Assembly (NCBI RefSeq): GCF_040448695.1
Contig: NZ_CP159307.1
Location: forward strand, 1,240,001-1,304,000
Reading direction: 5' to 3'
DNA: 64,000 nucleotides
Source: Dehalogenimonas sp. 4OHTPN
Lineage (GTDB): Bacteria > Chloroflexota > Dehalococcoidia > Dehalococcoidales > Dehalococcoidaceae
Shown: positions 10,089 to 12,727 of the stretch, in pieces
Layout of the letters: each line of letters begins with the position of its first letter
Numbering within the stretch: the stretch's first letter is position 1
Notes under the pieces: model-generated
The model's database searches: none
Told to the model about the DNA's origin: nothing
What the model saw: only the letters and a program-made list of their open reading frames with translations
Program-made: the position numbers and the translations under genes

Positions 10089-11492
10089 TTATTTGGCCTG
10101 GTCAAGCGCCTTTCCCAATCTTTCCACCAGAGCCTCCATTCTCTTCCGCTTCACCGGATTGTCCGCCGCCCGGGTATTGCCGATGACGCAAGCGGTGGAC
10201 TCGAACAGCGTGTCTATGATGCGCAGATTGTGCCGGGCAATGGTGCCGCCGGTCTCGGTATTTTCAATTAGAAGGTCAGCGTCCTCCGGCAAATAGGCCT
10301 CGGTCGAACCCCATGTAGGCGCGATGCGGTAGCGGCCGAAGTGGTTGTTGCGGGCGTACTCGTCAGCGATGTTGATATATTCTGAAGCGACCCGCAGATT
10401 GCGGTTCCGGAAATACTCCTTAAGCTCCACCGCATTAGTCACCGGCACCTCGTTAGCCACAACAGCGACAATGCGCACCCAACCATATTTCAGGTCAAGC
10501 AAGCGTTTGACTGGGGAGGCCGGGAACTGGTGCAAATGGTCGGTCAGCCAATCCCAGCCGGTGATGGCCAGGTCAAAGTTGCCGTTAGCCACTTGGATGG
10601 GCATATCCTGCGGCCGTATCGTTTTAATAGCAAAACCCTCCAGGTCGCTTTTAGGCCGCCGGAAGCCGCGGTCTGATGGATAGTCTTCGATGCCAATACC
10701 GGCGGCGTCGAGAATTTTCCTCACGTGCGGCTGTTGATGGCCATCGGGCAGTGCCAGCCGAACGACATCAGGGGCGTACTCGTGATAGGCCTCGAGAGCT
10801 GCCACCGTTTTCGGCGGCGCATCTTCGTTAAACTCTACTGCTGGCGGCAGGTTAGCCAGAATCGACGAGATAGCCGCCGAGAGGTCTTTGGAGGCCAGGC
10901 TTTCGCGGTTGGCTATTAGAACAGCCTTGAAGTCGAGAACTTTCGACAGAACTTTGAGACCTTTTAATACGAGTTCGCCCGCGCTCTTGCGCGGCAGGAT
11001 GACCACCTCGGCAGTCTCCGGCGGGTAAGCCTCGGCAGAGCCCCAGAGGGGGTACACGGCGTAATTTTTGAGGCGGAGCTGGATAGCCAGCTGCTCAGCC
11101 AGGTTAGGGTATTCCGAAGCCAGGCGTACCTTGTCGGCGCGCCTTGACAGGTCGGCCAGCGAGGTGACGCCGTCGCCCGCCGCTGAAGCCGCGTAGAGGG
11201 CGCCGTGGCCGTAGCCCAGCACTCTCACCTTCACCAGCGACGATAGGCGATAGCGGGAAACAAGTTCCTCCACCCAGTCAGCGCCGCAGATACCAAGATC
11301 GTAGTTGCCGATTGCCACCTGGATGGGGATGTCCTTTTCATGGAGCATTTTAGCCGACAGCTCCGGGAATTTGGCGCTGGTCAGCCGGTACAGCCGGGCT
11401 TTGGGCTGGTAGTCATTGAGCTGCCAGCCGGCACGGTCGAGGAGTGCCGCCGTATCCGAAAGCAGGCGGCCTTTGGGCAAGGCGACTCTCAT
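10089..11492 (-). CDS. hisG: Tandem-fused ATP phosphoribosyltransferase (HisG-HisG)
   Basis: HisG condenses ATP and PRPP in the first step of histidine synthesis. At 467 residues it is about twice the short HisG form and consists of two HisG-like copies in one frame. Copy 1 (about 1-215) starts MRVALPKGRLL, includes YDLGICGADWV and LASEYPNLAEQ, but its PRPP-loop position reads ILPRKSAGELVLKGL. Copy 2 (about 235-467) starts VRLALPDGHQQ, includes FDLAITGWDWL and VASEYINIADE, and keeps a normal PRPP loop, NTETGGTI. Thus copy 1 keeps the KGR motif and lost ETGxT, and copy 2 the reverse. Its ATG overlaps the hisZ stop by 4 nt. Function is probably retained through cooperation of the halves, but this is inference. 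Confidence 0.9.
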   Translation of the reverse strand: MRVALPKGRLLSDTAALLDRAGWQLNDYQPKARLYRLTSAKFPELSAKMLHEKDIPIQVAIGNYDLGICGADWVEELVSRYRLSSLVKVRVLGYGHGALYAASAAGDGVTSLADLSRRADKVRLASEYPNLAEQLAIQLRLKNYAVYPLWGSAEAYPPETAEVVILPRKSAGELVLKGLKVLSKVLDFKAVLIANRESLASKDLSAAISSILANLPPAVEFNEDAPPKTVAALEAYHEYAPDVVRLALPDGHQQPHVRKILDAAGIGIEDYPSDRGFRRPKSDLEGFAIKTIRPQDMPIQVANGNFDLAITGWDWLTDHLHQFPASPVKRLLDLKYGWVRIVAVVANEVPVTNAVELKEYFRNRNLRVASEYINIADEYARNNHFGRYRIAPTWGSTEAYLPEDADLLIENTETGGTIARHNLRIIDTLFESTACVIGNTRAADNPVKRKRMEALVERLGKALDQAK

Positions 11493-12727
11493 TCTTCAGA
11501 GGCCTCCCCGCCCAGCATCTCAACCAGTTCTTCGACTGTCTCGAACTCGAACTCCTCGTCTGTTTCAGTATCGGACAACACCAGCAAGCCGTCTTCTGTG
11601 ATGTTGAGAACCCAGTCATAGTCCATAACGTCTGGGTCGCCAAGTTTGATCTCGGCGGTGTAATCGGCGTCCCGAAGATCAGTGGCCACGGCGAAAGCAC
11701 GTGCCTCGTCGCCAGGCTGGAAGTTGACCAAAAAGCGGTCTGGTTCTTCCATCTCATACTCGGCCATATCAATGAACTTCATCAGCTCGTCCAGGTACAG
11801 GGCGAAGCCGGCCGCCGCCCTGGAAGGGCCGCCCATCAGGGCGATGAGGTTGTCATAGCGGCCGCCGCCGCCGACCGTAGCCCCATTAACCGAAAGGTGG
11901 AAGATAACGCCGGTGTAGTATTCAAAGCCGCGGCCGGAGGCCAGGTCGATCTCGTAGGGCACACCGACGTCGTCGAGTGTATCGAGTGTGGCGGCGAAGT
12001 CGCCTGCCGCTGCCTCCAACTCCACGGAGTAGCCGAAGAGGGACCTGAGATTGGAGAGGTAGTTGGATGAAGTCCCGGTTACACCAAGGAGAGTCTTAAG
12101 GCCGGCTAGAAGCTCCGGATTGGACTCGGCCAGCCGGCTCATCACCGACTCGTTGCCGTCGAGGATATCATCGAACAATTTGTGGCGAGCCTCCGGCGAC
12201 GGTTCGAGCTGGGCCAAGACCGCCTGGATGACCCCGGAATGGGAGATTTTTATACGGCCCTCAAGGCCGAGCAGTTCCAGAGTCTCAAGAGCCATGCGGG
12301 CGAGTTCGGCATCGGCCAGAGGGCCGCTGCCGCCGATCAGTTCCGCGCCGCACTGCCAGCGCTCTCGGCCGCTGCCCGGCTTCTCCTCAAAGAGGAAAGT
12401 GTTTACCACATAGAAGAGCCTGGCGACTTCGCGGTCGGTCAGGGAATCGGTGTACAGGCGGGCGATGGGGATAGTGCCGTCCGGCCGCATAACCACGCGC
12501 TCGCCGCTCCAGCCGTCCCAATCCAGGAAGGAGAACACCTGCCCCAGCATACCGGGGGTCAGCGTGCCGGTGGCGGTGAACAGGTGCAGGTACTCCAGGG
12601 TGGGAGTGCGCACCTCTTCGTAGCCCCATTTGAGCGCAGTATCAATAAAGACGGATTCCGCCAGGCGGAATTTCAGCATTTGTTCGGGGATCAGGTCGCG
12701 GCAGCCGCGACACCTCTCTTGAGTCAT
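11489..12727 (-). CDS. hisZ: ATP phosphoribosyltransferase regulatory subunit
   Basis: HisZ is a class II histidyl-tRNA synthetase paralogue that activates short HisG and mediates histidine feedback. The 412-residue protein begins MTQERCRGCRDLIPEQ, with VFSFLDWDGWSGERVVMRPDGTIPIAR as the motif 2-like region and RGFEYYTGVIFHL as the His A-like region, followed by GGRYDNLI. The start at 12727 is chosen because the open frame to 12865 runs through the promoter (12762-12790). The acidic C-terminus (ETDEEFEFETVEELVEML) replaces the anticodon domain expected in HisS. Position directly before hisG supports HisZ rather than HisS. Confidence 0.92.
   Translation of the reverse strand: MTQERCRGCRDLIPEQMLKFRLAESVFIDTALKWGYEEVRTPTLEYLHLFTATGTLTPGMLGQVFSFLDWDGWSGERVVMRPDGTIPIARLYTDSLTDREVARLFYVVNTFLFEEKPGSGRERWQCGAELIGGSGPLADAELARMALETLELLGLEGRIKISHSGVIQAVLAQLEPSPEARHKLFDDILDGNESVMSRLAESNPELLAGLKTLLGVTGTSSNYLSNLRSLFGYSVELEAAAGDFAATLDTLDDVGVPYEIDLASGRGFEYYTGVIFHLSVNGATVGGGGRYDNLIALMGGPSRAAAGFALYLDELMKFIDMAEYEMEEPDRFLVNFQPGDEARAFAVATDLRDADYTAEIKLGDPDVMDYDWVLNITEDGLLVLSDTETDEEFEFETVEELVEMLGGEASEE

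Follow-up and report, generated by a model that had tools for sequence, protein, structure and literature searches.

The hisG gene of Dehalogenimonas sp. 4OHTPN lies on the minus strand at positions 10089–11492 of the window, the 64,000-nucleotide stretch of DNA that was analysed here. It encodes 467 amino acids in a single frame with no internal stop codons, and the product contains two HisG units. PF01634 is matched twice, in half A with 89 bits and in half B with 114 bits, both above the curated cut-off, giving a total of 198 bits against a cut-off of 25.5. TIGR00070 (NCBIfam) is also matched in two stretches, with 245 bits against a cut-off of 75.75. An earlier, sequence-only reading had described two HisG-like copies in one frame, which these matches confirm, and had correctly quoted ALPKGRL and ILPRKSAGELVL from the first copy and ALPDGHQQ and NTETGGTI from the second. 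Half A comprises residues 1–222 (10827–11492, minus strand) and half B residues 242–467 (10092–10769, minus strand), and they are joined by a variable linker (residues 223–241; 10770–10826, minus strand).

Directly upstream, on the same strand and overlapping the hisG start by 4 bases, hisZ (11489–12727) encodes a regulatory subunit of 412 amino acids, as the sequence-only reading had also noted. This HisZ matches its family and has the histidine-pocket motifs FEYYTG and GGGRYD, yet it falls below the curated cut-off of every HisZ/HisS model, which indicates a divergent group of HisZ. Same-strand frames downstream of the fused hisG read as what we take, from their sequences, to be HisD, HisC, and HisB. 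Genes of the hisA/hisF type and a hisI-type gene are located elsewhere in the genome, a complete single contig of 1.75 Mb (99% complete). The only HisG matches in this genome are the two units of the fused chain, and a profile search across it for a second, normal HisG found none. If histidine is made, the fused chain must therefore supply the first step.

The fusion is widespread in Dehalococcoidia. Of the 101 genomes of the order, 92 have a HisG match, in most cases a single frame of 460–500 amino acids, with closed genomes among them; the other matches are for the most part fragments cut off by contig ends, and in two genomes the sole HisG is an ordinary short one. In a sample of the class, 356 of 393 genomes matched HisG. 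By a manual tally of the match list, about 240 of these have strong matches, as the fusion or its contig fragments, about 112 have weak matches covering one half (ordinary HisG), and three are ambiguous, so that the question of whether other Dehalococcoidia share the fusion is answered by some 240 of the 356 genomes. The phylum sample of 301 genomes takes in about 260 Chloroflexota from outside the class, and none of the matches listed for these spans both halves. A species-wide contig scan gave 333 confirmed loci, and the 80 of these that were listed all belong to Dehalococcoidia or to MAGs with looser or doubtful titles (Chloroflexi, or Deltaproteobacteria in two cases). Plasmids carry ordinary HisG alone. 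Two genomes (loci L114 and L119; genomes G344 and G212) have a separate ordinary HisG elsewhere (open frames of 310 and 361 amino acids) in addition to the fused one.

A frame error or assembly artefact joining two genes, which had been raised as a possible source of the long frame, is rejected because well over 100 genomes, closed ones included, carry the fusion without interruption. Both halves are under purifying selection, with dN/dS of about 0.05 for half A and 0.01–0.03 for half B; since each half also forms its own supported clade, chance is excluded. The reading of the gene as an annotation or assembly artefact, or as a decaying duplicate, has nothing but general possibility on its side. 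With intact frames in so many genomes, selection acting on both halves, and no other HisG in this genome, that reading is already refuted and retains next to no probability.

To compare the active-site residues of the two halves, we used one alignment of the halves of 106 fused chains with 56 ordinary HisG sequences and Psychrobacter arcticus HisGS, and a second alignment of 152 distinct fused chains. Numbering of the P. arcticus enzyme follows PDB 5m8h_E, in which R32 is the Arg of SKGR and R56-K57 are the RK of SRKL. Among the columns conserved in the 56 ordinary sequences, R56 and the Tyr at position 58 are kept by half A and not by half B, whereas D176, T178, G181, T183, and other loop residues are kept by half B and not by half A. 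The PRPP loop of half B (ENTETGGTI, residues 410–418; 10239–10265, minus strand) is intact: E/D410, T414, G415, and T/S417, equivalent to D176, T180, G181, and T183, are present in 152 of 152 chains, and the motif is absent in half A. The remnant in half A (LPRKSAGELV, residues 166–175; 10968–10997, minus strand) has lost the motif, so the two halves do not both keep full active sites. Across the A halves of the 152 chains this region is variable, and no new conserved ligand motif stands in its place. Invariant residues of half A include D54, Y64, E76, and E127.

The equivalent of Arg56 in half A is R33 (11394–11396, minus strand). This position is Arg or Lys in 141 of 152 A halves (R in 137, K in 4), as against 2 of 152 B halves, in which the interface Arg is lost and the present chain has G276 (10665–10667, minus strand). 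Position 58 is Tyr in half A versus Arg in half B. The whole complementary pattern, comprising the Arg56 position and the PRPP loop, is found in 137 of the 152 chains. All 11 chains without R/K33 retain R36, and seven of the 11 have a common G-F-Y-R arm, with Gly at the interface Arg and an Arg three residues on. The loci with this arm are from Dehalococcoidales (L173, L185, L193, L201, L211, L218, and L219). In three Dehalococcoides-like genomes, half A has K33 and C36.

The KGR motif behaves differently in the two halves. ALPKGRL of half A (residues 4–10; 11463–11483, minus strand) contains the equivalent of P. arcticus R32, which varies over the class (R in 98, D in 30, and K in 6 of 152 chains). 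In ALPDGHQQ of half B (residues 247–254; 10731–10754, minus strand), D250-G251-H252 replaces K-G-R, with D in 151, G in 152, and H in 152 of the 152 chains. Because it is invariant in half B, PDGH is, judged by this conservation, a new motif and not a decayed KGR. The KGR of half A was rejected as the complementary element on account of the R/D variation of its Arg.

In P. arcticus HisG, Arg56 extends over the dimer interface to the PRPP pyrophosphate bound by the partner subunit; the R56A variant is 42-fold slower and R32A 25-fold slower, HisZ compensates for these losses, and Lys in place of Arg56 costs about 24-fold (PMC9734150). Arg73 likewise acts in trans, on the γ-phosphate of ATP (PMC10998830). 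The two sites of a HisG homodimer flank the crevice that separates its head-to-tail subunits (PMC10795190). The best reading of our alignments is that the complementary pair consists of the interface-crossing Arg56 equivalent in half A and the PRPP loop in half B, and R33 is most likely what half A contributes. The sequence-only reading had proposed complementary losses that leave one composite site in the chain. The losses are real, and their complementary and ancient character is supported, but KGRL in half A, set against its replacement in half B, is not supported as the complementary pair.

If the arm of half A lay on the PRPP loop of half B, the two elements would be expected to covary. 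When the 152 chains (effective number 124) were put through mean-field direct-coupling analysis, the pair formed by Y35 of half A (11388–11390, minus strand) and T417 of half B came third overall and first among the A–B pairs. Its score is 1.53, where all pairs together have a standard deviation of 0.18; for this method the set of sequences is small, and shared ancestry inflates the couplings. Residues 35 and 417 are Tyr/Thr in 137 chains, Leu/Ser in 14, and Met/Ser in one, without exception. Their normalised mutual information is 0.93, compared with 0.65 for the runner-up, among 37,989 A–B pairs. On a tree from which these columns were excluded, the two positions change five times and always jointly, twice on well-supported branches; two supported independent pairs are too few for a p value below 0.05 in a tree-based co-change test. 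The covariation is not seen at the equivalent positions of ordinary HisG and is thus a feature of the fused family. These statistics support a contact between halves A and B, within one chain or between two, and point to a composite site between them.

Structure prediction is consistent with two HisG folds. The AF2 model of the fused chain has a mean pLDDT of 88.8 and a pTM of 0.75, with values below 50 at linker residues 224–235, and half A alone gives a pLDDT of 89.2 and a pTM of 0.87. Compared with HisG structures, half A reaches Z scores of 19–23.5 and half B 19–24 (maximum 24.0), versus 11–12 for binding proteins of the same general fold. The halves of the model probably pack in a defined way, because an unknown relative placement of two domains should give a pTM clearly below 0.75.

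In phylogenetic trees, the A halves (support 100/100) and the B halves (100/99) each form a clade, apart from a third group of ordinary HisG (97/92), and the same deep split appears in the subtrees of both halves. A single duplication and fusion, predating the radiation of the fused lineages, would be the simplest account of these trees. Two MAGs of other families (G140 and G155) encode the halves as separate, overlapping genes directly after hisZ. One pair (L284, 1495–2836) consists of A at 1495–2166 and B at 2156–2836, with hardly any linker; in the other (L288, 1348–2969), A runs to 2193 and B starts from 2193. A frame error is an improbable cause of the separation in these MAGs. In the trees the pairs fall either within the fused lineages or close to their base, so they may be later splits or relics. 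In two genomes of the Dehalococcoidales (L095, 2530–3861; L096, 669–2152), the fused gene has been lost; their HisG is of the ordinary short kind, groups with P. arcticus HisGS, and lies beside its own divergent HisZ. HisG and HisZ seem to have been replaced together.

hisZ is a constant companion of the fusion. Of the distinct fused loci for which 400 or more bases of preceding sequence are available, all 153 have a hisZ ahead of hisG in the same orientation, at a median spacing of about zero, and FEYYTG and GGGRYD are nearly invariant in 167 HisZ sequences. The most divergent fused HisG (loci L120 and L121; f40, g131) adjoin a HisZ that is matched in two short stretches and is probably strongly altered. 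With two HisG units per chain and a linked HisZ, the assembly would have to differ from the ordinary four-plus-four octamer, in agreement with the suggestion of the sequence-only reading that the octamer may be reorganised.

Taken as a whole, the fused HisG is probably the ATP phosphoribosyltransferase (ATPPRT) of these bacteria, working as a pseudo-heterodimer that has one composite active site per chain and is regulated by HisZ. A short HisG would have been duplicated anciently, and the copies fused and then specialised, so that the folded chain would reproduce a HisG dimer within itself. As the loop is intact in half B and Arg56 is kept in half A, half B would carry the sole PRPP/ATP pocket, and half A, having lost its own pocket, would serve as the partner subunit, laying an arm (R33-Y35 with R36) over the PRPP loop of half B and stabilising the leaving pyrophosphate. 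There would then be one composite site per fused chain versus two per ordinary HisG dimer. As in other enzymes of the short form, HisZ would bind and activate the catalytic chain and pass on inhibition by histidine, and the likeliest arrangement is two fused chains per HisZ tetramer. The two-gene A/B pairs after hisZ are as expected for a natural heterodimer of this kind.

Some observations fit the composite site poorly. The equivalent of Arg73, which also acts in trans (PMC10998830), is invariant in half B (R293; 10614–10616, minus strand) and mostly His or Gln in half A, opposite to the simple expectation, which calls for caution. Against the composite site also stand the 11 of 152 chains without R/K33 and the Dehalococcoides-like K33, a change that is costly in P. 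arcticus. The small number of well-supported Y35/T417 co-changes and the lack of this covariation in ordinary HisG count against it as well. As regards Arg73, either R293 of half B has another role and half A uses K/R53, a conserved basic residue two positions beyond the Arg73 equivalent, or half B pairs with the half B of a second chain. In the latter case, a B–B homodimer would be catalytically complete, with R278/R279 replacing Arg56, and half A would be a pseudo-subunit for structure or HisZ binding. The invariant R293 would suit such a homodimer, as would R279 (in 144 of 152 B halves) and R278 (in 134 of 152), which lie three and two residues beyond the lost Arg, near it like R36 in half A. 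We nevertheless consider it unlikely in view of the Y35–T417 covariation between the halves, of the strong selection that preserves the Arg56 and Tyr58 columns in a half A that lacks a pocket, and of the pTM of 0.75 reached by the fused model.

The sequence-only reading had alternatively suggested one catalytic and one regulatory half, and nothing that we found requires this. Half A could bind another ligand, such as a nucleotide, in its altered pocket and tune half B, with or without the trans Arg. AMP and ADP inhibit ordinary HisG, and the HisG fold of half A and many of its invariant residues have survived the loss of the PRPP loop. The variability of the lost loop, with no ligand motif replacing it, and the constant presence of HisZ, the usual regulator, make a regulatory half A quite improbable. 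A broader extension of the preferred composite-site reading, to which we give somewhat less than an even chance, is a class-wide asymmetric ATPPRT in which one composite site per fused pseudo-dimer is mounted on a symmetric HisZ tetramer, catalysis is retuned by Asp-Gly-His, and the second pocket is free for another role.

The fused enzyme resembles the short-form HisGS–HisZ systems, exemplified by P. arcticus, Acinetobacter baumannii, Thermotoga maritima, and Lactococcus lactis, in the HisG fold of both halves, the lack of a C-terminal regulatory domain, the adjacent hisZ, the histidine-pocket motifs of HisZ, and the probable active site across a HisG–HisG interface. It differs in its chain of 467 amino acids with two unequal units (about 200–230 amino acids and one unit in the short form), in its asymmetry, with a single active site predicted for each pair where the short form has two, in PDGH for KGR in the putative catalytic half, and in the predicted two chains per HisZ tetramer. 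With the long form (HisGL) of E. coli, M. tuberculosis, C. jejuni, and other Dehalococcoidia, it shares the catalytic core family and a chain of more than one domain. Its extra domain, however, is a second HisG core and not a histidine-binding regulatory domain: the chain ends after the second core, and none of the C-terminal regulatory-domain columns of long-form HisG were found in it. The fused HisG is accompanied by HisZ, whereas no hisZ was found in the flanks examined of the unfused long-form HisG loci of the class.

The two halves of hisA, and likewise of hisF, together build one barrel. The hisG fusion parallels their elongation (PMC7284861) as a histidine gene that underwent tandem duplication, divergence, and fusion, and it differs in joining whole dimer subunits. 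The elongation paper mentions hisG solely in operon order (PMC7284861), as do review articles on fusion and elongation among histidine genes. The sequence-only reading knew of no description of such a fusion, and our search of the open-access literature, which did not extend to subscription papers, likewise found no fused or tandem HisG.

Mammalian adenylyl cyclase C1–C2 is a pseudo-heterodimer with one active and one degenerate site. The fused HisG may be analogous to it, as a once-symmetric homodimer with two shared sites that has become a chain with one composite site; the fold and reaction are unrelated, so the analogy is one of working and not of membership. ATPPRT is a textbook allosteric enzyme in which activation is explained by one Arg crossing a symmetric dimer. 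In the fused HisG, evolution appears to have split the donor and acceptor roles between the halves of one chain, so that the interface residues, each active site, and the symmetry of HisZ can be tested one by one. Much of this class of environmentally important bacteria, organohalide respirers included, would then carry out the committed step of the histidine pathway with a layout that is annotated simply as HisG. One variant of it (L094, genome G067) is a fused HisG of 578 amino acids, in which about 90 residues are added between the two halves and half B contains a short repeated insert.
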